A program made the translations under genes and the position numbers. From Clostridiales bacterium (GTDB lineage Bacteria; Bacillota_A; Clostridia; Saccharofermentanales; Saccharofermentanaceae), in contig JAILHZ010000039.1 of assembly GCA_024695545.1 (NCBI GenBank), positions 1-16,503 on the forward strand: a stretch of DNA of 16,503 nucleotides, given 5' to 3'. Positions 461 through 15,496 of the stretch are shown here, one piece after another. How positions within the stretch are numbered: the first letter of the stretch is position 1; each line of letters starts with the position of its first letter. The notes under the pieces were generated by a model. That model was not told where the DNA came from. It made no database searches and was given only the letters and a program-made list of their open reading frames with translations.

Positions 461-544
461 GTATAGAAAAGTATATAGTATTCTTCAAAACTGATTATCA
501 ATCGACATTCTCACAAGGCATGTAATTGTGTTTCGCGCTCCCGC

Positions 545-3043
545 CTACTGCTGCTCCTGCAGGAGCGTAGTCACGCGGTTCTGGATAGTCCGGCTCACAT
601 CCTCCGCACTTCTGTCCCCGTTAAAGAATGCGGGCGCCTCTTCCCGGATGATATTAAACACTGCCGGATTCCGGTTTACCGCTGTCGAGATTCTCTCGAT
701 GTAACTTAGGAAGTCCGCCCCCAGTTCTTCCGTGATCGGCGGCGAGACCGGACCGTCATACCCCTGGCTCTTCTTCTCCTCGAGACGTGCTTTATCTTCC
801 TTATCCTGCTCGATCGTAAGCTTCACCGCATCTTCCACGACCTCGCGGCAGATGCTGATTCCTTCCGACGACCCGGACTGCCGGACACTCATCTTCTGCG
901 TTTCCGGCGACAACAGATACTGCACGAAATCCCACGCTTCCTCTTTGCACTCCGAGAACGCCGAGATGCCGATCGATGCGTGCGCTTCCGCCGCAAAACC
1001 GGATCCGCCCGTGGTCGGCCAGCCGAGGATCACGACCCGGCCGTCGCAGAGATCCGCATACCGTGAATATTCGCGAAGCGTAAACAGAGAAACCGGCACC
1101 ACGTAGCAAAGGCCAGCGTCCATAACAATCGCCTCTGTACTGTGGTACCCGTCGCCGTACCGCATATCATCGTACTGCTCCATGAGATCCGCAATCAGAT
1201 CCGGATTCAGTTTATTTCCCACATACTTCGAAATCTCCAGAAGCCTTCTGAAATCGTCGCTGTCGAAATATGCCTCGCATCTGCTGCAGTCAACATAGTG
1301 GTTCATGTCGTCGCCCAGAAGCTGCAGCAGGAGCGACATCGCGTCGTATTCGGTCGGTGAAAGAAGCGGCAGCACCTCGTCGCCGTTCGTCTGCATCTTC
1401 GAGAGAAACTGTTCGCAGGTCCATCCCGTTGTCCCGCCCAGAAGGTCCGGATTTCCAGCCAGCGCCTCGATCCGCACATTCAGCGGGAGCTGGTAGAGCT
1501 TGCCGTCCGTTTCAAATGCACGGAGGATGTTGTCGTAGTACAGGCTCCGGTCGATGCCATCACTTCCGTCAAGATAAGGATTAAGGTCGATGAGGAAGTC
1601 GTCGTTATTGAACTGAGCAAAGTCGGCGAAATCCAGAAGCACGTCCGGCCCGGTTCCCGACTTCATGTCCAGGAGCACAGTGTCGACCACGCCGGCTTCC
1701 GCCTTGGCAAAAGCACTGTCCATGTCGGCATTTGACCAGGCATCGTACGTGACGACGTATGCTTTACTCTCCGGCCGGTTATTGTAATCGAGTATCTGCT
1801 GTGTATAGTTTGCTTTTCCATATGTGCCTACGCGAAGGATCTTCTTCCCCGCATGAGGATTGGACGCCGCCTTCTGAATATGATACATCTCCATGGTCGG
1901 CATCTCATCACCTTCATTATCAAAAATCGGCGTTACATAGAGAATATCCGTCTCCGAATTGACGCGAAGGTCACCCACGCCACCATAGAAGACAGAAAAA
2001 TCGTTATCGTTTTCGGTATAGATGGTCTCTTCCTGCCCCGTGAACATATCCATCCGGGAGAGATCTCTTCCGGTAAAGAAGTACAGATCTTCTCCGAACG
2101 CACATATCGGCAGACTTGCCCGGGTGAATTCCTGTTTCTCGGAAAGTTCTCCGGTCTCGATATTGATTTCCTGATATCCGTAAACATGCTGAACTTCGCC
2201 ATCGACAGTCCTGTCAAACCCGACGATGATGTAGTACTTTCCGTTCGCATGGAGGATCGTTTCACACTGTAGATAGAAAGAAGATTTGTGAAGGACCTTA
2301 CCCTCCGTACTTAAGATATATGCATCTCCGTTATTGACGACAAGGAGATTCCCGTTTTCAAGTCCTGCCATCCGGACCTGCGTGGTCTGGCCGATATCGA
2401 TCGGCGTTCTGCTCTCACAAGTGCCGTCCAGGGTACAGATCCGAAGCCACAGTTCCACGTGCTGCTCTTCGTAATTAAAGATCTCGGAAACAACTGCTAC
2501 CTTATCCTGCCCATATTGGCAGAAGCAGCGGAACTCCTCTCCCCTGCCGAGGAAAAGTTTACTTATGAAATTTCCGCTCAGATCGAAAATGCACACGCCG
2601 GCTTCCATATAGTCGTACTCGATTTCGTGGTAGCGCAGATAATCTGCGGTATCTCGCGAGTTTTCGAGACTCTCATATTCTTTCTTCACATCTTCGGGCA
2701 TATCGTATCCGCCATCGAAGGCTACGCAGATATACTCTCCCATGAAATGCACTTCGTCGCGGAGTCGTATGTTTTTCGGGGTCTGTCCTTCTTCGAGCGG
2801 GAACTCAAATGTCATCTGCTCACAGGTATAGTACGGGTCGCTTTCGAGCACGTAGTCGTGTCTCGATCCGTCCGGGTTGGTAGCATCCGGGATCATGCCA
2901 GCCCCGGAAGTCTGCGCCCCCGCACCAGACCCACCTATCTTGTCGTCGTTCTTATTACAAGCCGTCACTGCGCCAAGTATCGTTGCCCCAAAAAACACGA
3001 AGCAGATTCCTGAGCTTAAGAAACGCTTCCACCTATTCATCAT
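545..3043 (-). CDS. Propeller-like/solute-binding hybrid lipoprotein (paralog A)
   Basis: Secreted lipoprotein, 832 residues from this start. The signal peptide ends in a GAVTAC lipobox. After an acidic linker comes an ESDPYYT motif, then about 300 residues of short beta strands with repeated D-x-x-G turns (DLSGN, STEGK, NIETG), which look like propeller blades. The joint NPHAGK (about residue 395) opens a family-1-type solute-binding domain with GTGPDVL, LIDLNPYL, DRSLYYD and LLSPETQ, ending in an IQNR motif. Three ATGs are in frame; the AGGGG site (3054-3050) abuts the one at 3049, so 3043 or 3040 is the better start. It is a single gene, divergent from the sigma operon, with no permease nearby. 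Its codons are visibly more GC-rich than the sigma operon. Ligand unknown; sugar or peptide binding would fit the family. Confidence 0.85.
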   Translation of the reverse strand: MMNRWKRFLSSGICFVFFGATILGAVTACNKNDDKIGGSGAGAQTSGAGMIPDATNPDGSRHDYVLESDPYYTCEQMTFEFPLEEGQTPKNIRLRDEVHFMGEYICVAFDGGYDMPEDVKKEYESLENSRDTADYLRYHEIEYDYMEAGVCIFDLSGNFISKLFLGRGEEFRCFCQYGQDKVAVVSEIFNYEEQHVELWLRICTLDGTCESRTPIDIGQTTQVRMAGLENGNLLVVNNGDAYILSTEGKVLHKSSFYLQCETILHANGKYYIIVGFDRTVDGEVQHVYGYQEINIETGELSEKQEFTRASLPICAFGEDLYFFTGRDLSRMDMFTGQEETIYTENDNDFSVFYGGVGDLRVNSETDILYVTPIFDNEGDEMPTMEMYHIQKAASNPHAGKKILRVGTYGKANYTQQILDYNNRPESKAYVVTYDAWSNADMDSAFAKAEAGVVDTVLLDMKSGTGPDVLLDFADFAQFNNDDFLIDLNPYLDGSDGIDRSLYYDNILRAFETDGKLYQLPLNVRIEALAGNPDLLGGTTGWTCEQFLSKMQTNGDEVLPLLSPTEYDAMSLLLQLLGDDMNHYVDCSRCEAYFDSDDFRRLLEISKYVGNKLNPDLIADLMEQYDDMRYGDGYHSTEAIVMDAGLCYVVPVSLFTLREYSRYADLCDGRVVILGWPTTGGSGFAAEAHASIGISAFSECKEEAWDFVQYLLSPETQKMSVRQSGSSEGISICREVVEDAVKLTIEQDKEDKARLEEKKSQGYDGPVSPPITEELGADFLSYIERISTAVNRNPAVFNIIREEAPAFFNGDRSAEDVSRTIQNRVTTLLQEQQ

Positions 3044-3130
3044 GATCATCCCCTCACAAAGGTTTCCCTCATATGTGCATTAGTTTCTCGCTGCTATCCC
3101 ATGCGAATGGCCACTTCCCCTTTTATTTTC

Positions 3131-3158
3131 ATTATATACGTGAACATCGTCCTCGATG
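3131..3158 (-). promoter_or_regulatory. Probable promoter of SBP paralog A
   Basis: On the minus strand a perfect TATAAT (3136-3131) lies about 85 bases before the start codon. No good -35 box is seen at 16-18 bases. Instead the inverted repeat CATCG-TCCT-CGATG (3145-3158) covers the spacer and the -35 position. A strong -10 with a poor -35 suggests an activator or alternative sigma factor, but this is not shown. Confidence 0.4.
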
Positions 3159-3232
3159 ATTACAAAGCGGTCACAATTCATGATGTCGTGTGTTGATATG
3201 TTAACTCTGGCTGGCTCGGCTCGATAGTCTAA

Positions 3233-3266
3233 AATGGATTTGTGTCATTTTGGACAAAAATCCATT
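3233..3266. repeat. 34-base palindrome 1 with TGTC-N6-GACA core
   Basis: AATGGATTT (3233-3241) pairs perfectly with AAATCCATT (3258-3266). Inside it TGTC (3243-3246) pairs with GACA (3253-3256) around six bases, with one mismatch at 3242/3257. It lacks a following T tract, so it is a better operator than terminator. Confidence 0.6.
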
Positions 3267-3274
3267 GTAGACTT

Positions 3275-3303
3275 TTGAGAAAAACTCCCGTCGGTGTTAT
3301 TTT
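3275..3303 (+). promoter_or_regulatory. Candidate promoter of the sigma-factor operon
   Basis: TTGAGA (3275-3280) and TATTTT (3298-3303) are separated by 17 bases on the plus strand. The expected start point, about 3310, would fall at the left edge of palindrome 2. A second possible -10, TATACT (3341-3346), follows palindrome 2 but has no clear -35. Either could drive the operon. Confidence 0.35.
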
Positions 3304-3307
3304 AGAA

Positions 3308-3337
3308 TGGAAAAGTGTCAAAAATGACATTTTCCCA
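3308..3337. repeat. Palindrome 2 with the same TGTC-N6-GACA core
   Basis: TGTC (3316-3319) and GACA (3326-3329) are separated by six bases, with outer arms TGGxAAA and TTTxCCA (3308-3337). The centre is 73 bases, about seven helical turns, from the centre of palindrome 1. The repeated core and phasing suggest that one dimeric regulator binds both. Confidence 0.55.
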
Positions 3338-3470
3338 CGCTATACTTGTTTTAGTGTATCAATTGATGCTTGGAGAATAGAGACGCTTAATTAGAGTGAG
3401 ACATTTTGCTATGGCAAACGACTAATAAGTGAAAAGAAAAGGAATCTCTTTTAATGAAAGGAGACACACA

Positions 3471-4028
3471 GTGGATACCGGTGCAAGCAGCTACCACCGT
3501 TATTTGGATGGAGAAGACGAGGGCATAGCGGAAATTGTGAATGAGTACAAAGATGGTCTCATTCTGTTTCTTAACGGATTCGTTAACAATATCCATATCG
3601 CTGAGGATCTAACGGAAGATACCTTCTTCCGACTGATGGTCAAGAAGCCCACGTTTTCCGGGAAAAGTTCTTTTAAGTCCTGGCTTTATGCCATAGGCAG
3701 GAATGTAGCCGTCGATTATGTCCGACATCACGCCAGAATTATTAACATTCCCAATCAAGATCTGGAATCATATGTCAAAGATGAAGAAAACCTTGAAAGA
3801 ACTTTTTTACGGGAAGAGAAGCGAATCAGGATGCATCAGGCTCTCAAGAGGATATCTCCTGATTATCGACAGGTCTTATGGCTTACATTTTTCGAAGACA
3901 TGTCAGGCAAAGAGGTTGGGAAAGTCATGAAAAAGAATTCCCGACAGATCAGGAATCTCCTTTATCGTGCTAAGCAATCGTTAAAAGAGGAACTTGAGAA
4001 GGAGGATTTCGATTATGAAGACTTCTGA
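3471..4028 (+). CDS. ECF-type RNA polymerase sigma factor
   Basis: A sigma-70 family protein of 185 residues from the GTG at 3471, with region 2 and region 4 but no regions 1 or 3, as in ECF sigma factors. Region 2 includes AEDLTEDTFFRLM (about 44-56) and the promoter-melting helix FKSWLYAIGRNVAVDYVRHH (68-87). Region 4 (about 125-170) has LKRISPDYRQVLWLTFFEDM and the helix-turn-helix KEVGKVMKKNSRQIRNLLYR. The tail is acidic. The GTG at 3471 has AAAGGAG (3457-3463) at 7 bases; the upstream in-frame GTG at 3429 has no ribosome binding site. The gene overlaps the next by 14 bases, so the two products are probably made in step, as sigma/anti-sigma pairs are. Which promoters it serves is unknown. 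Confidence 0.9.
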   Translation: MDTGASSYHRYLDGEDEGIAEIVNEYKDGLILFLNGFVNNIHIAEDLTEDTFFRLMVKKPTFSGKSSFKSWLYAIGRNVAVDYVRHHARIINIPNQDLESYVKDEENLERTFLREEKRIRMHQALKRISPDYRQVLWLTFFEDMSGKEVGKVMKKNSRQIRNLLYRAKQSLKEELEKEDFDYEDF

Positions 4029-5010
4029 AGAAATGTATAACAATCTGATTGAGCGGAAGTCACAATATAAAAAAATGCAAGATCAACGCCGTAGAAAGGC
4101 AAAAACCATCTTTCTCCCCATCATCAGTGTTTGTGTATTAGCGATATTTGTTTTTGGCATTCTCGGATTAAGTCATCAATTAAATGAGCATAGTGATGTT
4201 AAGCCGACTGAGTTTTCCATAGAATCAACAAAAGGTTCTTATGTTACACAAGCAGAAACTCGCATGGAAACGCGACCTGAAACCTGTGCCGAAACGAGTA
4301 TCGATCTTGACGAAGTTCTTTTCGCGCCCTCAAAAGAAGAAGTAGGGCCAGATGAATGGATACCCGATCCTGGGAACATCATAATTTCCAGCACCCTTGA
4401 AACTGAAAGCACAAAAGGAGAAAACAAAGATAAATATTTCGCTGTCTCAATTACGGTCTTTCACTTCGACTTCGTAGAAGCGTATCAGGAAGAACAGTAC
4501 GATAAGTATATGACTGCGTTAAACGCTCCTATACTGGTAAAGTACAGAGAGGATTATGAAATTTGGGTGGAGACCGTGGTAAGACCGGCCATTCCTGAAG
4601 AGAATCTGAAAGATGAAGCATACATGTATAACTTCGAAGAGAAATGGTACAACTCTAAGCAGTCTTATGACGAATTCGATGAGTATTGGAAAGAACACCA
4701 GAACGCAGATGTATGGGATGAATATCTTGAAGCAAGGAGAACCCATCAGGAAGCCTGGGATGAATATATGGATTATACGTTTCACGAGAACGAGATCCTG
4801 AAGGAATTGTTCTCGGCGGATATTGAGGCAGAAATGCAAGTCGAGCTTGATCGATTAAAAAACCTCGGATATGCTATTGAACTCGCAACTGACAAAGAAA
4901 ACACCTTGACCGGGTATCTTACCGGAGAACAGTTGTGCAGTTTCCCTTGTAGTCCGAAGCATGGGTATATTATCAACTGGAACGGACAGGAAGAACCGCT
5001 AGATGAGTAA
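4015..5010 (+). CDS. Single-pass membrane protein, probable anti-sigma factor
   Basis: 331 residues. A short basic cytoplasmic N-terminus (about 30 residues) is followed by one membrane segment (about 31-52, FLPIISVCVLAIFVFGIL) and a large acidic extracellular part. That part begins with a Thr/Glu-rich linker (TRMETRPETCAETS), continues with a Tyr/Glu/Asp/Trp-rich helical stretch, and ends in a more ordered module (YLTGEQLCSFPCSPKHGYI). The ATG at 4015 follows AAGGAGG (3999-4005) and overlaps the sigma stop, so translation is probably coupled. Position and topology suggest it holds the sigma factor at the membrane and senses something outside. It has no zinc-finger anti-sigma motif (HxxxCxxC) and I recognise no named family; the anti-sigma role rests on context. 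Confidence 0.65.
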   Translation: MKTSEEMYNNLIERKSQYKKMQDQRRRKAKTIFLPIISVCVLAIFVFGILGLSHQLNEHSDVKPTEFSIESTKGSYVTQAETRMETRPETCAETSIDLDEVLFAPSKEEVGPDEWIPDPGNIIISSTLETESTKGENKDKYFAVSITVFHFDFVEAYQEEQYDKYMTALNAPILVKYREDYEIWVETVVRPAIPEENLKDEAYMYNFEEKWYNSKQSYDEFDEYWKEHQNADVWDEYLEARRTHQEAWDEYMDYTFHENEILKELFSADIEAEMQVELDRLKNLGYAIELATDKENTLTGYLTGEQLCSFPCSPKHGYIINWNGQEEPLDE

Positions 5011-5026
5011 AAGGAGATCCATAGCA

Positions 5027-5065
5027 ATGAAAGCTTTGTTTATGAAAGGAGTTGTTTTAGTATGA
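5027..5065 (+). CDS. 12-codon leader ORF coupled to the Ig-like lipoprotein gene
   Basis: An ATG at 5027 with AAAAGGAG (5009-5016) upstream opens a frame encoding MKALFMKGVVLV. Its TGA (5063-5065) overlaps the next gene's ATG (5062-5064) as ATGA, and the next gene's ribosome binding site AAAGGAG (5045-5051) lies inside it. This is the arrangement of a translational coupling or attenuation leader. It could instead be the remnant of a lost gene start. Confidence 0.4.
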   Translation: MKALFMKGVVLV

Positions 5066-5526
5066 GAAAAGCAGTATATGTTTTAGCAATCGTTTTAGCA
5101 AGTTGTTTGATTTCATGTTCATGTTCCAAATCCAAAAAGAAGCCGGATTACGTTCCTGTCGATGAAGGAATCGGAACAATGGATATCGCTCTATATGTAA
5201 CTGGAGATTCCCAAGCAGTTACAGTTGAATTTGTAAATCGTGATGATGAGTCCTGGTGTTTTGGTGAGTATTATAAACTCGAGTTCTTGAGAGACGGAAC
5301 CTGGTATTACGTTCCTAGTGAGGATTATGCTGTACACGATCTGGCTCATGAACTAGCTCCGAATCAGAAGGATTCATTGACATATGATCTGACTCCGTTT
5401 GGCAAACTCGATGCAGGCGATTACAGAATCGCCTGCGGAGGCGGAGGCGATAATAACAATAATTACTATGCATATTTCCACATCACGGACAAGAATGAAT
5501 TTATCGGCACAACGCCCACAGAATAA
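5062..5526 (+). CDS. Small lipoprotein with a bacterial Ig-like domain
   Basis: 154 residues. The signal peptide ends in the lipobox LISC (Cys19) followed by a Cys/Ser/Lys-rich stretch, so the protein should be lipid-anchored outside the cell. The mature part is one beta-sandwich: IALYVTGDSQAVTVEFVNRD, YYKLEFLRDGTWYYVP, LAPNQKDSLTYDLTP and LDAGDYRIA. This strand order, with a final AGxYRI, is what I associate with the Ig-like Big_14 type domain of clostridial surface proteins. It is the last gene of the sigma operon, immediately after the leader ORF, and may be the extracellular partner or output of that system. The asparagine run DNNNNYY near the end is a flexible loop. Its ligand is not evident. 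Confidence 0.75.
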   Translation: MRKAVYVLAIVLASCLISCSCSKSKKKPDYVPVDEGIGTMDIALYVTGDSQAVTVEFVNRDDESWCFGEYYKLEFLRDGTWYYVPSEDYAVHDLAHELAPNQKDSLTYDLTPFGKLDAGDYRIACGGGGDNNNNYYAYFHITDKNEFIGTTPTE

Positions 5527-5546
5527 TCACCTCTACGAGACTTGAT

Positions 5547-5585
5547 AACCATAATCAATCATTTCGCGTGATAGGTTTATTTTTC
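5547..5585 (+). terminator. Weak candidate terminator between convergent operons
   Basis: AACC (5547-5550) and GGTT (5574-5577) enclose ATCA (5558-5561) and TGAT (5569-5572) with a 7-base loop, followed by TATTTTT. The stem is short and interrupted, so this is only a weak terminator for the sigma operon. I see no clear terminator here for the convergent SBP operon. Confidence 0.3.
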
Positions 5586-5626
5586 GTTCGCAGCCGACTC
5601 TTTGAATTCGTTATATTCTGTGACTA

Positions 5627-8032
5627 CTATGTTCCTTTACCATACTGCTCTTTCATGTATGTATTGACACGATTCTGAATGATCTGACACACATCTTCCA
5701 CACTCTTCTGGCCTTTGAAATACGCCATTCCTTCTTCCAGGATGATCTCTTTGATGCGATAATTCGACATTCTCGAGATGTATGCCTTTTCGAGCATCTC
5801 CATGAACGAACTCTTTTCCATATCTGTCAGGTCCGCCTCTTCGCAGATATCCGCTGCAGCTTCACGATAAAGCGGAATGGAATAGAAATCTTTCGCGCAT
5901 TGGATCTGCTGCTCTTTCTCAAACAAGAAACGGATGAAATCCCAGCACTCCTTCGGGAACTTCGTATTCTTCGATATTCCTAAGGTAAAATCCGAGCCTA
6001 CGGAGTATCCGCCTTCCATACCATATACGCCGGCATTTCCATTTAGCATTTTCAAATAATCGGCATACATCTCGGGCGCAGAAATGGTTGCAGGAATAAG
6101 GGCAACTAAACCTGCCTGCAGCTGTTCTTCCGGCGGCGAATAATCGTCAGGTGCCATATGCCCGGTCTCAGAATGTATCTCTACACCGGGTGGATTGGGA
6201 TCTGCACCAAGTGCAGATGCCACTTTAAGAATAGAGTGAAAACCTTCATTTGTTACATTCATGGTCATGCTGTTTGCATCCAGAAATTGCGAGAAACTTC
6301 CCGGGAGAAGGAGATCCAACATTTTCTCATAAGAATAAACAGGAAACAATCGGGTCGTTCCTTCTATCCTTCCCTGCATTTCGAGAAGTTCAGAAAGGGA
6401 AAGGATCCTCGATTCACCAAGGAGCCTTTGATCCCCCACGAAGCCGTAAACATCCATGCAGACCGGTATGTGATAGAGTTTCCCTCCGATTTCGAAACTT
6501 CGGAAAGCACTGTCATAGTACCTGCTTCGATCCAATCCGCCATCGCCGTCTATAAAACTGTTCAAATCCAGAAGAACCGCATCCGAAGAAAACTGTGGCA
6601 ATGCAGAGAAATTTGCCAAGATGTCCGGTCCCTCGCCGGAAAGCATATTTAGGTATATCTGATCCTCTACTCCTGATATAACTTTATCATATGCACCGTA
6701 CCCTGCTATGTCCTGACTGTAATCATGAACATCAATACGGATCTTATGCTCAGTCATTCGGTTATATTCGAGCACATATTCCAGAAGACGTTCATCGTTT
6801 ATGTTCCGGTTTCCAAGCTCAACAGTCGTTCGTCCTGCATAGGGATTATTATCAGCCTTCCGGATCGTGACCAACTGCACCTGCATCGCACCATACCGTT
6901 CTTTCCCGTCCTGTTCAAAACGATTTCGGATCAGTTGGATGTACTCCCCGGTCAAACGGGCGTTCGTTCCGATCACACCATAGCGGTTCATATCCACATC
7001 GTTCCAGTCTATATAGATGGAACTCTGCTCGTTTCCGCTCATATCCACTTTACGGATTCCATTTCCATCCAGATAGAAAAGGCTGTCCGTCTGAATCTTC
7101 TCTCCGCCAAGAATAGTTTTATCAGCTTCATTACCGGTTGTAAGTAAAGGCTGGATCAAGCCTTCACGAGCTGTATGCTCTATACGGATCGTCTTCCCGC
7201 TCATTTTTCCATTATCGATATCGACCTTCTCCAAATAGAAATAAGTCAGAGCTGGATCATCCTCATCATAATGACGACAAACCACCCAGACATCTTCTCC
7301 GAGCACATATAAAAAACCGTGAAACTCATTGTCCACGATACGAGCAACTTCTTTCCCATCCTGTCCGAAAAGAATGATTCCATCGTAATCGTACCATCCG
7401 ATCCATCGCCCATCCGGCAATCCCCTCATCCCATAAAAGTAGTCATAATCGTCTTTGCCAACCAGTTCAACAAGATTCTTCTGACTGCCGTCTCTTTGCA
7501 CCTCACAAATGAACGTATGAACCTTTCGGGCTTCCTCATCGTAGGGGCGTGATAACATCAATAGTTCACCATTCGGGCCAACAAAAAAGTCGCTTCGATT
7601 TGCGCTATCATCCGTTTGCCGGAATAAGATGTGCCCTTCATGGTCAAATCCGACATATCCGTTTTCGTGATAGCTATTGTATTCTGCCTGTATTTTCTCA
7701 GCTTCTTCCACTGTATAATTCTCTGGGTGCTGATCTTTATCCAGTGTACGTGCATTGAGCTCCTGCGGGACTTCATATGAAATGCTATAATCAAACACCA
7801 CCATATCCGAAGAGATCAAGCCGGAATCCAGTTGAACATGGACCAGTTCTTTTGACTCATCAAGCGGGATCTTCATATCGACAAGTTCCGCCGTATAGAA
7901 AGGATCGTTCTCAGTAATTACCCTCCCGGAGATCCGATTCTTATGCTGCTGCGTCTTTTTACATCCGGCAACTCCCAGAAGTAGCGAAACCGCCATAATC
8001 ATAGATAGTGTCTTAAGCTGTATTCTCTTCAT
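5627..8032 (-). CDS. Propeller-like/solute-binding hybrid lipoprotein (paralog B)
   Basis: 801 residues from this ATG. The lipobox is LGVAGC, followed by Lys-rich residues and an ENDPFYT motif matching paralogs A and C. The N-terminal half has repeated turn motifs typical of propeller blades (DHEGH, QRDGS, GQDGK, DIDNG, DMSGN). The joint NPYAGR (about residue 396) leads into the solute-binding domain with SGEGPDIL, LLDLNSFIDGDGGLDRSRYY, FIRFLFEKEQQ and a C-terminal VEDVCQIIQNR. The ATG at 8032 has GAAAGGAAG at good spacing; a GTG at 8041 would add three residues. It starts 15 bases after the stop of paralog C, whose stop overlaps this ribosome binding site, so the two are cotranscribed and coupled. 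It is the last gene of the blaI-led operon. No transport genes follow. Confidence 0.85.
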   Translation of the reverse strand: MKRIQLKTLSMIMAVSLLLGVAGCKKTQQHKNRISGRVITENDPFYTAELVDMKIPLDESKELVHVQLDSGLISSDMVVFDYSISYEVPQELNARTLDKDQHPENYTVEEAEKIQAEYNSYHENGYVGFDHEGHILFRQTDDSANRSDFFVGPNGELLMLSRPYDEEARKVHTFICEVQRDGSQKNLVELVGKDDYDYFYGMRGLPDGRWIGWYDYDGIILFGQDGKEVARIVDNEFHGFLYVLGEDVWVVCRHYDEDDPALTYFYLEKVDIDNGKMSGKTIRIEHTAREGLIQPLLTTGNEADKTILGGEKIQTDSLFYLDGNGIRKVDMSGNEQSSIYIDWNDVDMNRYGVIGTNARLTGEYIQLIRNRFEQDGKERYGAMQVQLVTIRKADNNPYAGRTTVELGNRNINDERLLEYVLEYNRMTEHKIRIDVHDYSQDIAGYGAYDKVISGVEDQIYLNMLSGEGPDILANFSALPQFSSDAVLLDLNSFIDGDGGLDRSRYYDSAFRSFEIGGKLYHIPVCMDVYGFVGDQRLLGESRILSLSELLEMQGRIEGTTRLFPVYSYEKMLDLLLPGSFSQFLDANSMTMNVTNEGFHSILKVASALGADPNPPGVEIHSETGHMAPDDYSPPEEQLQAGLVALIPATISAPEMYADYLKMLNGNAGVYGMEGGYSVGSDFTLGISKNTKFPKECWDFIRFLFEKEQQIQCAKDFYSIPLYREAAADICEEADLTDMEKSSFMEMLEKAYISRMSNYRIKEIILEEGMAYFKGQKSVEDVCQIIQNRVNTYMKEQYGKGT

Positions 8033-8047
8033 GAAAAGCACTTCCTT

Positions 8048-10447
8048 TCATCGTTCCGAAACGATCGTCTTTGTCCGATTCTGAATATTCCTGCAAACCT
8101 CATCCACACTTCTCTGATCGGCAAAATACCCCTGTGCCTCTTCCCATATGATGGAAAATACATCCGGATCGGAGGCATTCACAACATGAATGCTTTCCAC
8201 GATTCGTTCAAGCTCAGCAGTCATCTCTTCTGTGATTTCAACCGGGGCTTCATCTCTTGGATTTTGAGGATCAGAAGCAGAAGCCCTGACAATTTCTTGA
8301 CTTGTTTCCCGGATCTTCTGATTCAGCTCTGTCATGGCTTTCCGGGAGACAGGCATACTCCGGTCATCTACCTTCCCTGCCACCACCATACAAGTTTGCT
8401 GTTCCTCTGAAATCACAAAGCGAAGAAAATTCCATGCCTCTTTTTGATTCTCGGAGAAGCTGGAGATTCCCATAGACAGACGGATCTTCGCGCACATCGA
8501 GCCATGGTCACTATTGGGGGTACCACAGAACACAGTCTTGTCTCCCAGATCACTTTTGACCCTGGCATAGGTGGAAAGATTGGTGAACCCGGCCTGCACA
8601 AACGCTAACATTCCTTCCCGAAACATCGCGGATGCATCCGGCCGGGACTCGTCTATCTCCTCATATTCACTCGCCAGTTGTTCATGTGTCTTCTTGGAAC
8701 CATATGTTTTTATTATTTCCAGAAGCCTCTCGAAAGCAGGATCGTCAAAATGCACCTGCTTATTTCCATAATCTACAAATTCCGTATAATCCAGATAGGA
8801 AAGCATATCTTTGTACGGCATTTCCGGGAGCACTGTAACATCATCCGGCAGTGCTTTTGCCGTATCCAAAAACTCCTGATAGGAATAGGAATCTTTCTCT
8901 CCAAGCACATCTTTATTACCTACAAATCCGGACACCGTGAATGTGACCGGCAGCTGATACAGTTCTCCTCCTACCTCACTTGCGCGGAAAAGATTATCGA
9001 AATATAGACTCCGGTCAAGGCCGGTTCCATCGGCAGCATCGATCAAGGGGTTAAGATCGACCAATACTTCATCGTTATTCAATCTGGAGATCCATGAGAA
9101 TCCCATTAGTATATCCGGCCCATTACCGGACAACAGCTCCAGAGACACTTTATCGGAAAGAGCTTTCTCCGGATTTTCTCTTCCCGAGCCTTCATCTGCA
9201 TCGCTCAGTGAATAGTAGATCATCTCGATACGGCATAGCGAGTTTTCATCCAGATTATAGCGGATCACAGTTTCTCCGATTTCCGAAGCTGTCTCCTCCG
9301 TGTCAAAAGCACCGACCCGTACGATCTTCTTCCCTGCATGGGGATTCTTCTCTGCCCGAACTGCACGAAGCAGTTTCAGTTGCGGAATCGTCCTATTCTC
9401 TCCCTTCGACCCGGATTCGTACGTCTCCTGAACCGACAGGAAATACACTTCGTTCTCCGATTTGATATATGCTTTCCCGACACCTGCATGATTATAATCT
9501 GAGAAATTCCAGTTAAAGACTTCCTGATTCTTCGAAGAATCGAATAGATTGAGTTTTGTTATTCCGTTCACATCTGAAGAATAACTTCCATCCTGCCCAC
9601 GAGTGATCCCGGAAGTATCGGAAATGCGATGCTTCTCTCCCACAAACTCACCCGTTTGGGTAGTAATCTCCTGTATATAACTATAGTTTTGATCCCAGTC
9701 TTCCGGATCATAGTGATTTCCTACACCATAATACTTCTCATCCTGAAGAAGAATCTGTCCTACAAATTCATCGTTTGCTGCTGAGCCGATCAGAGAACCG
9801 TCCGACGAAACCAGATATAGCTCCCCGAAATCAGAAATCATCAGATTTCCGTTTCTTAAGGAAAGAACATCACTCTCTTCATTCACCTCCACTGGAAGCT
9901 CCATCGTTTTCACCAAACTTCCGTCGTCATTTACTTTCTGAAGAATTGTCTCTCCTTCCTGAATTTTGTTAGTAACAGCAAATCTTTCGCCGCCGGAGTT
10001 TTCAATTATCTTAATGACGCGATTCTCCGCGTTATCATACTCCGCCAGATCCATGATCACATTTCCATCCAGATCAAACATCTTTTTTCCATGTTTATAG
10101 TTTTCCTCATACCACTTAAGGTATTCCTCCTCCTGCCCGTTCATCAGTTTTTTCTGCATTTCATCCTGCTCTTCCTGAGAGGTCAGATAACGGATATCGT
10201 AAGTAATCACTACACTGTTTCCTACAAAGCTGCTTTCCCCGATGAAAACACCTTCCACTTCCTTATCCTTGTCAATAGGAATCGGGAGATCTATCTCTGA
10301 AATGGTAAAATACGGGTCCGACTCCGAAACGACAGTTTTTCTGCCTGTTTCACCGGTCCCGGTCTTTTTCTTACAGGCCGTTACAGGCAACAGAAGTGAT
10401 GCAATCAGGGATAGTGCCAGTATTTTCGCAGTGGTCATTTTCTTCAC
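8048..10447 (-). CDS. Propeller-like/solute-binding hybrid lipoprotein (paralog C)
   Basis: 799 residues. The signal peptide ends in LPVTAC (Cys25) followed by KKKTGTGETG. An ESDPYFT motif (42-48) precedes the propeller-like half, whose turn motifs include DLDGN, NDDGS, SSDGS and TTQTG. NPHAGK (368-373) is nearly identical to paralog A and opens the solute-binding domain with SGNGPDIL, LVDLNPLIDAADGTGLDRSL and FLRFVISEEQQ, ending in IQNR. The GTG at 10447 is chosen over the ATG at 10438 because AGGAGG (10460-10455) is 7 bases upstream of it. It lies 74 bases after the BlaR1-like gene on the same strand; the gap carries a BlaI-like operator, so expression may follow blaI-blaR1 and also be tuned separately. 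Shared motifs make it closest to A and B, more distant from D. Confidence 0.85.
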   Translation of the reverse strand: MKKMTTAKILALSLIASLLLPVTACKKKTGTGETGRKTVVSESDPYFTISEIDLPIPIDKDKEVEGVFIGESSFVGNSVVITYDIRYLTSQEEQDEMQKKLMNGQEEEYLKWYEENYKHGKKMFDLDGNVIMDLAEYDNAENRVIKIIENSGGERFAVTNKIQEGETILQKVNDDGSLVKTMELPVEVNEESDVLSLRNGNLMISDFGELYLVSSDGSLIGSAANDEFVGQILLQDEKYYGVGNHYDPEDWDQNYSYIQEITTQTGEFVGEKHRISDTSGITRGQDGSYSSDVNGITKLNLFDSSKNQEVFNWNFSDYNHAGVGKAYIKSENEVYFLSVQETYESGSKGENRTIPQLKLLRAVRAEKNPHAGKKIVRVGAFDTEETASEIGETVIRYNLDENSLCRIEMIYYSLSDADEGSGRENPEKALSDKVSLELLSGNGPDILMGFSWISRLNNDEVLVDLNPLIDAADGTGLDRSLYFDNLFRASEVGGELYQLPVTFTVSGFVGNKDVLGEKDSYSYQEFLDTAKALPDDVTVLPEMPYKDMLSYLDYTEFVDYGNKQVHFDDPAFERLLEIIKTYGSKKTHEQLASEYEEIDESRPDASAMFREGMLAFVQAGFTNLSTYARVKSDLGDKTVFCGTPNSDHGSMCAKIRLSMGISSFSENQKEAWNFLRFVISEEQQTCMVVAGKVDDRSMPVSRKAMTELNQKIRETSQEIVRASASDPQNPRDEAPVEITEEMTAELERIVESIHVVNASDPDVFSIIWEEAQGYFADQRSVDEVCRNIQNRTKTIVSER

Positions 10448-10487
10448 TTTAAAGCCTCCTACTATTTCGGCTAATGGTCACAATTTA

Positions 10488-10501
10488 ACTACACTTGTCG
10501 T
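10488..10501. promoter_or_regulatory. Candidate second BlaI-type operator, before paralog C
   Basis: ACTACA-CT-TGTCGT matches the BlaI/MecI dyad TACA-N2-TGTA in seven of eight core bases. Its ACTACA half and following TGT match the operator at the blaI promoter read on the minus strand. It lies 41-54 bases upstream of the paralog C start. A weak promoter (TTGCTT 10513-10508, TTAAAT 10488-10483) would overlap it. Confidence 0.45.
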
Positions 10502-10521
10502 TTATTTAAGCAAAAAATATA

Positions 10522-11775
10522 TTAAAAGATAGCCGTTGCCGTTGTTTCCTCTACTTCATCAAGCTCGGTGTTTTCCACCCAGCCTTCATCGTCGACATAC
10601 TCCTGTGAAGACTCGATCGGTTCATTATCATCCGTTTCTGTCCATTCAGTAACCTCTTCATAAGCTGAAGATTCAAAGACTTCTGTTTCCTCTACCCATT
10701 CTGTATCCGGATCAGTCCATTCTGTTGTTTCAACCAGTTCAGCCGATGACTCAGTTACTTCTGTTCTCTTCAGTTTTCTATTTGCTTTCTTGTCAGTATT
10801 GGTTCTACTGCCGGAAAAAGCGAATCCGGATACTACTGTCAACAGGACTGACAGAACCAGAATACCTACGATCATTCTCTTCTTCCCGCTGAGGACCATC
10901 GAGAATCTATGTTTCAGCCCGGTCTTCGGCGAATAGAAGCTTGTCGCAAGAACCGGCCGAAAAGCACTGTTTTGTCTTTGGACCTGATCTGCGAGCGTAT
11001 TCAGGATCGACTGGCAATAGACTTTTCTCATGCTTTCCGGTTCGCGTTCCATGACGGCCATATCGCAATAGTACTCACACTCCTTTTCGATCGATCTTCC
11101 GAAAAGGATCATGAGCGGATTAAACCAGTGGAAAGCGCGGCATACGATCAGCAGTAATTTGATCCACAGATCTCTATGCTGAAAATGCGTGAGTTCGTGC
11201 TTTAGGATCAGCCGGAGCTCGTCATAATCATATTTTCGTTTAGGAAGAAGGATCGTTGGAGAAAGAAGCCCGATCATCATCGGAGAAGAAACTGCTTCCG
11301 TCAATAACAATTTGACTTCGGAAACGCCCATTTCCTCCGCGATGGGCTTAAGAAACGCATCGTATTGCGCATAGGAACGGGAAAGACGCAGGACAGTTCT
11401 TTTCCATCTAAAGAAGCGGATAAACGAGACTGTCAGGAAAGCCGAAACTCCCAGCAGATACACTACGAAAAGAACATAGAATAAGGTGCTGAGCGATGTA
11501 CCGGGATTTGCCACCTCGACAAGATGTGTTCCCGTTCCTACGGAGACCGGTTCGGACGCAGCACTATTAGAAAAATAAATCAATGCTTTTCCAAACGTGA
11601 ATCGTACCGGAATCAGAAAACCAATAAGTACGATCAGCCAGGAGTAATATCGGATCTTGGGCGACTGTCTGTTTTTCAGCACGAAAAGGATCACCATCAG
11701 TAGCATCGCCACTAAAGACATATTCAATGAATTCAGAAGAATCGCCTGAAATATGGATCCCATATATCCCCTCAC
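10522..11775 (-). CDS. BlaR1-like membrane metalloprotease (peptidase M56) with acidic tail
   Basis: Membrane zinc protease of the BlaR1/MecR1 family, 417 residues, expected to inactivate the neighbouring BlaI-type repressor when an outside signal arrives. Membrane segments are at about 8-32, 43-66, 96-120 and 300-320. The family motif SPMMIGLLSPTILLP (164-178) precedes the zinc site HELTH (193-197), with ECEYYCD (232-238) supplying Glu234 and Asp238. After the last segment the usual penicillin-binding sensor domain (about 250 residues) is missing. In its place is a 97-residue extracellular tail rich in Glu, Thr, Ser and Trp, with repeats such as TEWTDPD and TEWTETD. The GTG at 11775 overlaps the blaI stop as GTGA; the ATG at 11763 has AGGGG at short spacing, so either start is possible. 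The signal sensed is unlikely to be a beta-lactam. Confidence 0.88.
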   Translation of the reverse strand: MRGYMGSIFQAILLNSLNMSLVAMLLMVILFVLKNRQSPKIRYYSWLIVLIGFLIPVRFTFGKALIYFSNSAASEPVSVGTGTHLVEVANPGTSLSTLFYVLFVVYLLGVSAFLTVSFIRFFRWKRTVLRLSRSYAQYDAFLKPIAEEMGVSEVKLLLTEAVSSPMMIGLLSPTILLPKRKYDYDELRLILKHELTHFQHRDLWIKLLLIVCRAFHWFNPLMILFGRSIEKECEYYCDMAVMEREPESMRKVYCQSILNTLADQVQRQNSAFRPVLATSFYSPKTGLKHRFSMVLSGKKRMIVGILVLSVLLTVVSGFAFSGSRTNTDKKANRKLKRTEVTESSAELVETTEWTDPDTEWVEETEVFESSAYEEVTEWTETDDNEPIESSQEYVDDEGWVENTELDEVEETTATAIF

Positions 11776-12158
11776 TGCTCATCGAGCCATTTTCTTAAGT
11801 CCGTGATCTCTTCCTTTGATAACTCGCCACCGTCATAGAGTGACTTCACCAGACCGGTTATCCTGGTCCCTCCGAAACGCTGGCGAAGACTCTGGGCTTC
11901 TACCTGAAGATACTCCTCTTCCGTAATTGCCGGAGAATAGTATCTTTCTTTCCCATTCTTCTCTGATCGCAGAAAAGACTTCTTCTCCAATCGGACAAGC
12001 ATGGTCATTACTGTCTGCTGTTTCCAGTCTTTCTCCGGAAGAGTTATTCGCAGTTTTTCCGTAAGGATCGGGGAAGTCACAGGCTCATGACATTGCCAGA
12101 TCGCACGCATGATCTCAAACTCCGCATCCGGAAGCTTTTTGATATCCTTCCCACTCAT
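11772..12158 (-). CDS. BlaI/MecI/CopY-family transcriptional repressor
   Basis: 128 residues, the normal length for the family. The winged-helix domain (about 10-75) begins with LPDAEFEIMRAIW and has the recognition helix KDWKQQTVMTMLVRLEKKSF (44-63) and wing GKERYYSPA. The C-terminal dimer region carries the family pattern SLYDGGELSKEEITDLRKWL. Family members bind TACA-N2-TGTA dyads as dimers and are cleaved by the partner protease to relieve repression. Here the stop overlaps the start of the BlaR1-like gene by four bases. GGGAGAG precedes the ATG. A perfect dyad lies at its own promoter, so it should repress itself and the downstream genes. Family assignment is firm; the inducing signal is unknown. 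Confidence 0.93.
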   Translation of the reverse strand: MSGKDIKKLPDAEFEIMRAIWQCHEPVTSPILTEKLRITLPEKDWKQQTVMTMLVRLEKKSFLRSEKNGKERYYSPAITEEEYLQVEAQSLRQRFGGTRITGLVKSLYDGGELSKEEITDLRKWLDEQ

Positions 12159-12178
12159 AACTTCTCTCCCATTAATAA

Positions 12179-12192
12179 ATTACATTTGTAGT
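12179..12192. promoter_or_regulatory. BlaI-type operator at the blaI promoter
   Basis: ATTACA-TT-TGTAGT contains a perfect TACA-N2-TGTA core (12181-12190) with 5 of 6 pairs in the longer arms. It starts about two bases after the predicted transcription start, 21 bases before the blaI ATG, where bound repressor would block initiation. Confidence 0.8.
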
Positions 12193-12200
12193 TTATCTTT

Positions 12201-12229
12201 ATGGTAGCACCAGGCAAGAAGTCTGTCAA
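12201..12229 (-). promoter_or_regulatory. Promoter of the blaI-blaR1-SBP operon
   Basis: On the minus strand a perfect TTGACA (12229-12224) is followed after exactly 17 bases by TACCAT (12206-12201), which matches TATAAT at four positions. The expected start point is near 12194, next to the BlaI operator. Confidence 0.75.
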
Positions 12230-12285
12230 TTCTGCATTATCGTAAACTGTGGACGCTCAAAATTCACGAAATATGCCAATGTCTT

Positions 12286-12330
12286 TTATTGACGGTAATC
12301 AGCATCGGGAAATAACTCACTGATTTTCAT
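12286..12330 (-). CDS. Candidate 14-residue ORF upstream of blaI
   Basis: The ATG at 12330 has GAGGAG (12344-12339) at 8 bases, as good as any ribosome binding site in the window. The frame encodes MKISELFPDADYRQ and stops with TAA at 12288-12286, 57 bases before the blaI -35 box. It has no signal peptide or known motif. It could be a short peptide, a regulatory leader, or the start of a decayed gene. No canonical promoter is visible upstream, only the ACATTTCG repeats. Confidence 0.4.
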   Translation of the reverse strand: MKISELFPDADYRQ

Positions 12331-12362
12331 AACACTATCTCCTCACACGTTGATAATTCCAG

Positions 12363-12402
12363 ACATTTCGGAACTTTTCTATGACATTTCGACAACATTT
12401 CG
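12363..12402. repeat. Three ACATTTCG repeats on one helix face
   Basis: ACATTTCG (CGAAATGT on the minus strand) occurs at 12363-12370, 12384-12391 and 12395-12402, with steps of 21 and 11 bases, about two and one helical turns. The first is part of AGACATTTCG, also found at 190-199. They lie just upstream of the short ORF in its direction of transcription, as activator sites would. Confidence 0.45.
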
Positions 12403-12500
12403 ATTTGCATTTTGAAAACAATACGGCACGCCAAACCAATATTGGGACAGAGTCCGATTTACAATGTATGTAGCATAGCTGAAAAAGCGCCGTTAATCCT

Positions 12501-13184
12501 CTAAACAGAGAGAAACTGGAGTTGTCCGTCCTTAATCATCGGAATCCCGGTTTCCACAGGTGTTTCATTTTCGAAAACGGAATAGGCATATTTATCGACG
12601 TACAGTTTCCCCTGATCCGCCCTGAGAATGTAGTCATACTTCATCCTGTCTTTTAATACATAACTCTTTTTTTGGATATAATCATAAACAATGATGTGAT
12701 AGTCTACGTTTCCGGAACCAAATGCCACGGTAGAACAGAGTTCCGGCTTCCCATCTCCGGTCAGGTCGCAGAAATACACACTTAGTATCACACTTTCCTT
12801 TAATATCTCTTCGGTTCCCTGATCTGTCGTAGCCGTGATTCTACTTCCGAATTCATACGTATCTGCAAAGGTCGTCCATTGGAAAAGCACGTCCGGAAAT
12901 TCTTCGATACATATCTCTTCTTTCAAACCCCACTCAACGCTTTTCTCTCGGCTAAAGTAATCAAACCATCGGACAGCATGAGCAAGCGAAGCGATCTCCT
13001 CTGGCGTCATTGGCTGATTAGAAGAAGTCTCCGACGAACCTTCTCTTCCGTTCGAATTCACTGTTTCCTCGTCAATTCTTTCAGCGGAGCTTTCGTCCGT
13101 CTTCTTTTTTCCACAGGACGCGCAGGAAATCACAAAGGACAAAGTCAGTCCCGCTGCCAGAAATCGATACCTCATATTTTTCAT
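12501..13184 (-). CDS. Lipoprotein with a stand-alone domain resembling a BlaR1-type sensor
   Basis: 227 residues. The signal peptide ends in VISC, with a second Cys after ASC, then a Ser/Glu-rich linker of about 45 residues. The mature domain contains FPDVLFQWTTF, VILSVYFCDLTGDGKPELCS, AFGSGNVDYHIIVYDY and DRMKYDYIL. The DLTGDGKPEL loop resembles a calcium-binding Dx-x-GDG turn. From memory, this same pattern occurs at the C-terminus of BlaR1-like M56 proteases in Clostridia, so this may be a detached sensor domain; the BlaR1-like protein nearby lacks one. The ATG at 13184 has GGAGG (13197-13193) at 8 bases; a TTG at 13190 is less likely. It lies 32 bases after paralog D and is the last gene of that operon. 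Confidence 0.75.
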   Translation of the reverse strand: MKNMRYRFLAAGLTLSFVISCASCGKKKTDESSAERIDEETVNSNGREGSSETSSNQPMTPEEIASLAHAVRWFDYFSREKSVEWGLKEEICIEEFPDVLFQWTTFADTYEFGSRITATTDQGTEEILKESVILSVYFCDLTGDGKPELCSTVAFGSGNVDYHIIVYDYIQKKSYVLKDRMKYDYILRADQGKLYVDKYAYSVFENETPVETGIPMIKDGQLQFLSV

Positions 13185-13216
13185 GCTCAAATCCTCCAGC
13201 TTTCCACAATATCCTT

Positions 13217-15496
13217 CTACTGATAATTCTCTGAAATATACAGATCCATCCGATCATCAAGAGTCGATGCGATCTGCTCGACTGTACGTTGCTGCGTGTA
13301 GTACGAAGAGATTTCGTCGTATATAAAGTCCTCGACGCCCCAGTCGATTGCTCGAATTGTATCGACCGAGTTTACGAATTCACGGAAATCCTCTGCTGCT
13401 TCTGCGCTGACAGCTGTATGACCGAACACAAATCGCTTCATATCTTCATCTGTCACATGCTCGGGATCCATAGCACTACTTAAAACAAGATCAAGCACCT
13501 CACTGTTCACCGTCCCACATCCGAGTTTTTTCTGTGTTTCCGGCACGAGAAGTTGCCGAACAAATTCCCAGCACTTTTCCTGATTCTTAGTAGACGAGGA
13601 GATCGCCACCTGCCCGGATGGAACTGCCAGATGGACTGAGTCATACATTGAAGGATACCCGACAAACACTATTCGATCGTGCACCGACTTTTCTTCCCTG
13701 GCCAGTTCAAAGACATCCGAAGGGCCATAATTCGCCAGATAGCAGAGGCCGCTGTACACATCCTGTAGCGAGGCAAACTCGCCCCACGTCACAGATGGAT
13801 CTACACCTATTGCCAAAACTGTTTCAACCAGTTCTTCCAGATTCTCTCTCTTTACTTCTTTAGGTTGCCCATACGCACCCCAAAGATCGCAATAGTTGTA
13901 CATCAGTGCTTCCCCTGCCAACGCCGGTGCAGACTGTATTGCACTCATCGACTTGCCGGAAGAATCGCACATTTTCTTCATCTCAGAAAGGCTCACTTCG
14001 TTATTTCGGAAATCGCTCCGAAGTCCATAGTATCCTCCCATGTTATAACTCGAAAACACGTAATAGCAGTGTTCTCCGTCTCTCATCATAAGATTTCGCA
14101 GGCTCGGGATCAGACTGTCGAGATTCACCTCCTTGTCACTTTCGAAGAAGGGAACCATATCCATGACGATACCGGCATGTCCGAAGTAGTCATAATCGAA
14201 ATTCTCTCCATAGAAGATATCCGGTGCATTTCCCTCTCGAAAATACTTCAGAAGTTTCATTTTCACTTCTTGAGCCTCCTGCTTAGTTGACCAGGAAAAC
14301 TCTTCAAAATAGTCATGAAGTACGACGCGATAATCATCATTAGTCGTGTTAAAGTTGTAAACTGCCCAGCTCAATGCCGAATCGGTTAGAAGGCCATATC
14401 CTCCCACCACAAGTTCTGTGCAGTTCTGGTGAAGTGTACTGTCGTAAGTGAAAAATCCGATGTCCGCGCTTCCGTCTTCGTAGGTAGTCTTCTTTGCAAA
14501 ATGCGTATCATCAAGAGCAACATATCTGCTAGAACCACTCATCTTGTCCGGACGTATATCCGTGTCGTTCCACAGCGCCATTGTCTGAATCTGCATATTG
14601 GGAAGATCCACCTTATACTCACCTTGAAGCGTGAAATAATACTGGTTATCACAGCGGTCAACATGTGCATCAAAACCGTCCGTATTAATCACGAACTCCG
14701 TCTTCTGCGACGCAAAATCAAGTTTGTAGTAATCAGAGAAACGCTCATCTTCACAGGAGAGAAGATAGATATTCCCACCCTGTTCGAAGATTCCCATAGA
14801 ACCTTGATGCATCGACATATCCGTCGTTATCGTTGTCAGTAGTTTCCAGTCAACTGAGTATTTGGCGATTGTCCTATTTCCGACAATGATGTAACCGTCC
14901 GATATAGAATAGATCGAATGCGCATACATGTCGAGATGGATCACATTTGTCTCCTCGCCGGTTTCCCTATCGAAGAAAAGAAGATCATTTCGCATATCGG
15001 ATTCGTTCATCTCACCTCGGTTGACCGCAGCCCACTGCTCATTCTCTTCGGTCAGGACTACAAACTCCTTTTCCAGAAGCAAGCACAGATTCTGCTCTCT
15101 GTTCATTTGCAGCTTATTCCGAAGCTGTCCATCCAAACCCACCGTAAGGATATCCATGCGATATTCACGTTTCTCATCCCCACCATTTTCTGCGCGACTA
15201 TAGAATACGGACAAACAGTAATTGATTTCATCAAAGAAGACGTTTCCTATCTCATAGATATTCCATCCATCTTCTGCTGACAGATCGAGATATGTTCCAC
15301 GATAACTGTACTTTCCTCCGACTCTCTCCAGAGAACTTCCCTGATCGACCAAGTTTTGTCCTTCGCCCATCAGGTCTGAACCATCTGATTTCTTTTTCTT
15401 ACAGCCCGTACCCGATATCGCAAGTAAACTGATGACAAGAAGCCCGACCACGGTGCGAATAAAAATATGCCATTTAGAACTACTGCATCTCTTCAT
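13217..15496 (-). CDS. Divergent propeller-like/solute-binding lipoprotein (paralog D)
   Basis: 759 residues. The signal peptide ends in ISGTGC (Cys32, with an unusual Gly at -3) followed by KKKK. The N-terminal half again has blade-like turn motifs (GLDGQ, DRETGEE, SVDWK). It lacks the ESDP and NPHAGK motifs of A to C; the joint instead runs through WAVYNFNTTNDDYRVVLHDY. The solute-binding domain is recognisable by GNAPDIFYG, NLDSLIPSLRNLMM, CWEFVRQLLVPETQ and a C-terminal RTVEQIASTLDDR, where DDR replaces QNR. The ATG at 15496 overlaps the upstream gene by 17 bases, with GGAG at 7 bases inside that gene, so translation is probably coupled. Its different neighbours and motifs suggest a different partner from A to C. 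Confidence 0.83.
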   Translation of the reverse strand: MKRCSSSKWHIFIRTVVGLLVISLLAISGTGCKKKKSDGSDLMGEGQNLVDQGSSLERVGGKYSYRGTYLDLSAEDGWNIYEIGNVFFDEINYCLSVFYSRAENGGDEKREYRMDILTVGLDGQLRNKLQMNREQNLCLLLEKEFVVLTEENEQWAAVNRGEMNESDMRNDLLFFDRETGEETNVIHLDMYAHSIYSISDGYIIVGNRTIAKYSVDWKLLTTITTDMSMHQGSMGIFEQGGNIYLLSCEDERFSDYYKLDFASQKTEFVINTDGFDAHVDRCDNQYYFTLQGEYKVDLPNMQIQTMALWNDTDIRPDKMSGSSRYVALDDTHFAKKTTYEDGSADIGFFTYDSTLHQNCTELVVGGYGLLTDSALSWAVYNFNTTNDDYRVVLHDYFEEFSWSTKQEAQEVKMKLLKYFREGNAPDIFYGENFDYDYFGHAGIVMDMVPFFESDKEVNLDSLIPSLRNLMMRDGEHCYYVFSSYNMGGYYGLRSDFRNNEVSLSEMKKMCDSSGKSMSAIQSAPALAGEALMYNYCDLWGAYGQPKEVKRENLEELVETVLAIGVDPSVTWGEFASLQDVYSGLCYLANYGPSDVFELAREEKSVHDRIVFVGYPSMYDSVHLAVPSGQVAISSSTKNQEKCWEFVRQLLVPETQKKLGCGTVNSEVLDLVLSSAMDPEHVTDEDMKRFVFGHTAVSAEAAEDFREFVNSVDTIRAIDWGVEDFIYDEISSYYTQQRTVEQIASTLDDRMDLYISENYQ

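Follow-up and report, generated by a model that had tools for sequence, protein, structure and literature searches.

The four large lipoproteins H1 to H4, encoded in a 16,503-nucleotide stretch of a Clostridiales genome (hereafter the window), appear to be dispersed members of an expanded receptor family in which a beta-propeller is joined to a solute-binding protein (SBP). The gene neighbourhoods of this family suggest receptors for uptake and for sensing. The whole model, in which the family of H1–H4 feeds one shared MalFG permease while a BlaR1-linked subset senses, is one to which we give an even chance. The combination of propeller-SBP proteins, one conserved MalFG-HlyD-MacB gene set and fusion to BlaR1 is new as far as the literature matches listed go.

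The hybrid lipoproteins and their family

All four hybrid genes lie on the minus strand: H1 (834 aa, 545..3049), H2 (804 aa, 5627..8041), H3 (799 aa, 8048..10447) and the divergent H4 (759 aa, 13217..15496). H3 follows directly after a BlaR1-type gene and H2 begins 6 bp after H3. The N-terminal half of H3 (residues 36–366; 9350..10342, minus strand) has 24 strands and belongs by fold to the beta-propellers, probably with six blades. Its C-terminal half (residues 373–799; 8051..9331, minus strand) was placed by both Pfam and fold among the two-lobed SBPs of MalE type (SBP_bac_1/8). Fold evidence comes from H3, the other three hybrids being assigned from sequence: H1 and H2, like H3, score above the cut-off of the Pfam SBP_bac_1/8 profile, and H4 falls below it (20.3 versus 26 bits). 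The TTT/Bug family (PF03401) is absent among Pfam matches of H1–H4 at E values up to 1. Alignments to known structures were taken from Foldseek's own list, in which the lack of a family carries no meaning. The preliminary description of this DNA had proposed four propeller-plus-SBP lipoproteins in a single locus devoid of permease genes; both points are borne out, the propeller fold of the N-terminal half for H3 specifically.

Between H1 and H2 lie three genes on the plus strand, specifying an ECF sigma factor (3429..4028, recognized by family profiles), a single-TM protein whose gene overlaps it (3994..5010, no family above cut-off) and which is perhaps its anti-sigma factor, and a small lipoprotein with an Ig-like Big_14 domain (5062..5526, Pfam). 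Copies of this trio (3429–5526) also adjoin the H2 copy in locus L038. On the minus strand, a 229-aa protein with no family assigned (12501..13190) is encoded between H4 and the BlaI-type gene, and a gene without family match (15480..16502), which runs off the edge of the window, shares its last 17 bp with the start of H4, so that the two are perhaps co-translated.

The nearest genome, G001, has a copy of H2 at 97% identity. Its hybrids number 33 at full length, with two further pieces at contig ends, and are dispersed as single genes or in groups of two to four. In the tree, H1 groups with dispersed copies of the genus. Identity to H3 is 15–35% among 35 other copies, and SBP columns are conserved across copies, those of the C-terminal helix included. 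In the source annotation these lipoproteins mostly go under the name of extracellular or carbohydrate solute-binding protein.

Each of 19 same-genus genomes carries at least 12–34 hybrid matches (best 33 candidates per genome scored), and other genomes of the order in the same survey gave one hybrid match in 3 of 12. Across the order Saccharofermentanales a hybrid was found in 113 of 188 genomes (E 1e-40), and in a class-wide draw in 23 of 391; relatives beyond the order include Butyrivibrio, going by source names. Since the best 33 (genus), 5 (order) or 2 (class) candidates per genome were scored, copy numbers are minimum values and absences less certain; gene calls were made with a simple script. 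An expansion limited to one genus, which the first of these surveys suggested, was rejected, as most hybrid-bearing genomes of other genera in the family hold several copies (best 5 scored).

A conserved MalFG gene set

The preliminary description called the hybrids orphans. The term holds at the window locus, from which a gene set like that of transporter C (an SBP beside MalF, MalG, HlyD and MacB-like genes) is absent, and is rejected for the family as a whole, whose relatives adjoin a conserved MalFG gene set. Twelve PF00528 matches were found in G001. Two of these adjoin hybrids, a third (C45:60510, L041) lies about 6 kb from one with other genes between, and in the stretches surrounding the other nine no full hybrid was called. 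On contig C12 (L033) two hybrids are followed immediately by a MalF-MalG pair. The MalF gene of this pair recurs as one copy, 87–100% identical, in 18 of 19 same-genus genomes, with two in G168 and none in G010. Upstream of this cassette an ABC ATPase and an ABC_export protein are encoded (L033:16207–18634).

Co-occurrence points the same way. Among the 188 genomes of the order, at thresholds that differ for hybrid (E 1e-40) and permease (E 1e-70), 105 have both, 8 the hybrid only, none the permease only and 75 neither. The suggestion that a transporter encoded elsewhere serves the window's lipoproteins gains support from this, MalFG being present in 105 of the 113 hybrid-bearing genomes; the eight in which no permease was found at the threshold used include G010, which is 94% complete. 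Neither hybrid nor permease was found in seven genomes of genus g14 (best 5 hybrid candidates scored per genome), which looks like joint loss. In the class-wide draw of 391 genomes, both were found in 23, a permease relative with no hybrid match in 18, and a hybrid alone in none.

We chose 67 permease genes for comparison of neighbourhoods: those of 18 same-genus genomes and the second copy of G168 (its first copy left out), the remainder coming from 19 of the 78 permease-bearing genomes in other genera of the family, three of the five in genus g3, and class loci. The cassette runs MalF, MalG and then usually an HlyD-like and a MacB-like gene, HlyD being near 63 of the 67 permease genes and a MacB-like gene near 57; three of the four HlyD misses and seven of the ten MacB misses fall at contig ends, and HlyD or MacB lies upstream in four cases. 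Within the genus, 18 of 19 loci have a hybrid near MalF on its upstream side (L073 extends 0.5 kb upstream); in other genera of the family 15 of 19 do, and four have none near the permease. In genus g3 the hybrid comes after the MacB gene (3/3 loci). In families f29 (Butyrivibrio by names) and f42 all nine loci that contain MalF also have a hybrid near it, which in every case follows MacB, two of them having one ahead of MalF as well. Of the other six loci examined with these, L156 is a short contig with HlyD, MacB and a hybrid, and L153, L155, L157, L158 and L159 each contain either a hybrid or a shorter SBP from this family, the gene set being absent. The gene set is kept across two families of the order, plus f29 and f42. 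More distant families have, in some loci, an SBP without propeller (about 430–460 aa) or with other extra sequence; near 3 of their 17 permease genes there was no SBP match. In the tree, cassette hybrids from the genus fall into a single clade (support 0.93) within the stand-alone copies. The preliminary description had held that homologs consistently placed beside cognate permeases would speak against it; the neighbours turn out to include both permeases and sigma/BlaR1 genes, and the objection applies in part.

Both permeases carry EAA-type coupling loops by our reading of the sequences. A MalK-type ATPase (OB_MalK) gave one or two matches in each of ten genomes checked; it is not specific, since it also occurs in G096 and G158, both of which have neither hybrid nor permease.

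The nearest studied relative is CbpC of Clostridium thermocellum transporter C, which lacks a propeller and branches well away from the hybrids in the tree. Locus L206 encodes CbpC (identical over residues 24–460 to PDB 7x0o) and, downstream, MalF, MalG, an HlyD-like gene in two overlapping frames (L206:5634–6987) and a MacB-like gene; a 283-aa frame lies between CbpC and MalF. The genes downstream of this HlyD we take to be sigma-like and RsgI/xylanase-like. According to a 2022 mBio paper (PMC9601137), no binding of CbpC to any of the tested carbohydrates was seen, an extra loop blocking its pocket, contrary to an earlier study that the paper cites. It also describes normal growth of a transporter C mutant on glucose, cellobiose and Avicel, and one of its figure legends names an AcrA-like gene, with no operon stated. 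Because this closest solved relative has no settled substrate, a sugar ligand should not be assumed for the hybrids.

HlyD and MacB are usually parts of export systems, which brings up the alternative that the cassette is an exporter or an envelope-maintenance machine, with the SBP a structural or sensing accessory rather than an import receptor. The frequency of both genes beside the permeases would suit it. So would the GntR regulator, ABC ATPase and 730-aa membrane protein (DUF6449) which precede the L150 cassette (540–4001), genes of similar size standing before those of L149, L151, L152 and L154, and also the lack of sugar binding reported for CbpC in PMC9601137. We nevertheless consider an exporter unlikely, given that MalF and MalG with EAA loops and an SBP are hallmarks of importers, and that the MacB-like protein has two TM segments in 34 of 46 cases by crude hydropathy. 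MacB itself has four. The HlyD protein and its mostly two-TM MacB-like companion may be a tether, a conduit or a sign of export.

The BlaR1 link

Upstream of H3 and H2 the window encodes a BlaI/CopY-type repressor (11772..12158, minus strand; the NCBIfam CopY and BlaI models both score below cut-off) and an M56 membrane protease of BlaR1 type whose extracellular tail is short (10522..11775, minus strand; PF05569, 154.9 bits), the two genes overlapping by four bases. The translated protease contains HELTH, matching the HEXXH motif of M56 membrane proteases. The order BlaI, BlaR1, H3, H2 has close counterparts: in G004 (L178) it reads BlaR1, hybrid, H3 relative, H2 relative, and the Scatonaster coprocaballi record (L032:1427–13084) shows BlaI, BlaR1 and a hybrid, then a second unit in which the BlaR1 match is reduced to 179 aa and is accompanied by an H3 relative and a 225-aa H2 piece. 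M56 protease and repressor are ordered as in BlaR1/BlaI and MecR1/MecI. Unlike in those systems, no penicillin-binding sensor domain was found as a Pfam family in the window BlaR1 or in the ten M56 proteins of relatives that were scanned, and its place is taken by, or paired with, a propeller-SBP.

Three of the six M56 genes of G001 adjoin hybrids, and a fourth is separated from one by a single gene. Over 23 genomes of the genus 74 M56 genes scored above cut-off. Sixty were examined (14 left out, 13 seen with flanks of at most 1.5 kb), with neighbourhoods that are partly orthologous and hence not independent: 4 are fused to a hybrid, 19 lie within 500 bp of one, 6 more within 2 kb, and 31 are neither. 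By our arithmetic estimate, which uses no control gene family, about 4–5% would be so associated by chance. The signalling role proposed in the preliminary description gains support for a subset (4 of 60 fused, 25 of 60 within 2 kb).

The four fusions (L180, L181, L191 and L199, from four genomes) are open frames of 1038–1084 aa with HEXXH present, in which the M56 part and last TM run straight into a stretch scoring 263–272 bits over most of our family profile. Pfam recognizes M56 in all four and an SBP above cut-off in none, so that the assignment rests on this profile and on BLAST to hybrids (three at 30–37% identity across about 720–760 aa, the fourth at 25% across about 850). Three fusions are orthologous at 89–93% identity; the fourth aligns with them weakly (24–28% over 214–358 aa) and falls in another clade, from which we conclude that there were two or more fusion events. 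H4 shares a clade with the L180-type fusion (support 0.94), with 30% identity over about 762 aa. A cysteine at the end of the last BlaR1 TM in the fusions was considered as a lipobox and rejected; it may be native to M56 proteins. Six long M56 proteins that are not fused (L182, L186, L188, L189, L190 and L035; 739–1282 aa) have M56 as their one Pfam match at E 0.01, and their extra parts are perhaps other sensor domains. Locus L159, from a Butyrivibrio-type genome, has an SBP of this family (455 aa) separated by a few genes from one for an M56 protein, so that the M56 link may be older than the propeller.

These associations could be read as sensing only, hybrids outside the cassette being co-receptors for BlaR1/BlaI and ECF sigma modules with no part in transport. 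Two independent fusions, 19 pairs within 500 bp, the sigma gene between H1 and H2 and the grouping of H4 with a fusion all agree with this. Against it, the four hybrid-near M56 genes of G001 cover 6 of its 33 copies (the neighbours of the other copies being annotated in part), and hybrid and permease are absent together from the seven genomes of one genus described above (best 5 hybrid candidates scored per genome). We regard sensing without transport as improbable. Still less probable is that the copies diversify as surface glycan binders (adhesins or decoys) without transport or signalling, for their high divergence, lipoprotein nature and scattered genes are countered by the conserved SBP columns and C-terminal helix, the co-occurrence with the permease and the BlaR1 fusions.

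Proposed receptor model and related systems

Under the shared-permease model the founding gene would have been part of a set of binding lipoprotein, MalF, MalG, HlyD-like adaptor and MacB-like protein, the binding protein gaining an N-terminal propeller in this and some other lineages. At the cell surface, each lipoprotein would bind a ligand of its own, with the propeller assisting in capture, presentation or handing over and the SBP half closing on the ligand. Many lipoproteins, stand-alone copies presumably docking as well, would then feed the single conserved MalFG permease, which would work as an importer powered by a MalK/MsmX-type ATPase encoded elsewhere. Hybrids beside or fused to BlaR1 would report their ligand, leading to removal of the BlaI repressor and induction of hybrid genes; H3–H2 after BlaI-BlaR1 would be one such induced unit. 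Cassette copies and some stand-alone copies would thus transport, and BlaR1-linked copies sense. Several points count against the model: CbpC is reported to bind no tested sugar and its mutant to grow normally, HlyD and MacB usually export, 8 of 113 hybrid-bearing genomes show no permease at the threshold used, 4 of 19 loci in other genera show no hybrid near the permease, the MalK-type ATPase is not specific, and Pfam detects no SBP above cut-off in the fusions. More speculatively, and somewhat doubtfully, we picture a new class of Clostridia receptor-transport machine with an importer-type MalFG core, HlyD/MacB-like parts (perhaps a wall conduit or tether) and dozens of exchangeable propeller-SBP lipoproteins, a module which could be plugged into BlaR1 in place of the penicillin sensor to give a sensor of nutrients or envelope fragments.

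Were the one-transporter, many-receptor arrangement true, the nutrient range of these bacteria would be set by lipoprotein genes. The work also ties together a C. thermocellum "sugar" transporter without settled substrate, a large clostridial lipoprotein expansion and the BlaR1-type proteases. To our knowledge little is known of the signals of such proteases beyond beta-lactam resistance; the BlaR1 fusions offer a direct handle, as the ligand of the propeller-SBP should switch the repressor.

Orphan binding-protein expansions, propeller lipoproteins and BlaR1 are each already known. The orphan SBP expansions of the TTT/Bug family (434 copies in Rhodoplanes; also Bordetella) are, by the abstract of PMC5994714, likewise lineage-specific, with some members near regulators or membrane components; they concern another SBP family and transporter, and that abstract does not mention a propeller, a single shared cassette or a BlaR1 link. 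MsmX/MsmK-type ATPases shared by Gram-positive sugar transporters (PMC9601137) offer a parallel in that the permease has no adjoining MalK gene and a MalK-type ATPase is found elsewhere, whereas in the present system parts would be shared among many receptors and not just among many permeases. The likeness of the hybrids to the Bacteroides surface propeller lipoproteins BT2095 (8okv) and XusB (9gbc, 8gex) is one of fold only, these having no SBP half. Both work with an outer-membrane partner, and BT2095 is also called BtuG; the propeller of the hybrids may, like them, be a domain for initial capture or transfer. For transfer from a propeller to an SBP, AztD/AztC (PMC6689063) is a possible lead. 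Among the literature matches listed (for two queries, 15 of 281 and 12 of 33) there was no paper on a propeller-SBP fusion, a MalFG-HlyD-MacB set or a BlaR1-SBP fusion.

Other tandem arrays were seen as well. Cassettes at L207 and L209 have two to four tandem binding proteins of 429–456 aa, too short for a propeller, as a small parallel expansion. At L048:1832–3986 four tandem 149-aa paralogs with a near-identical signal peptide lie upstream of a hybrid.
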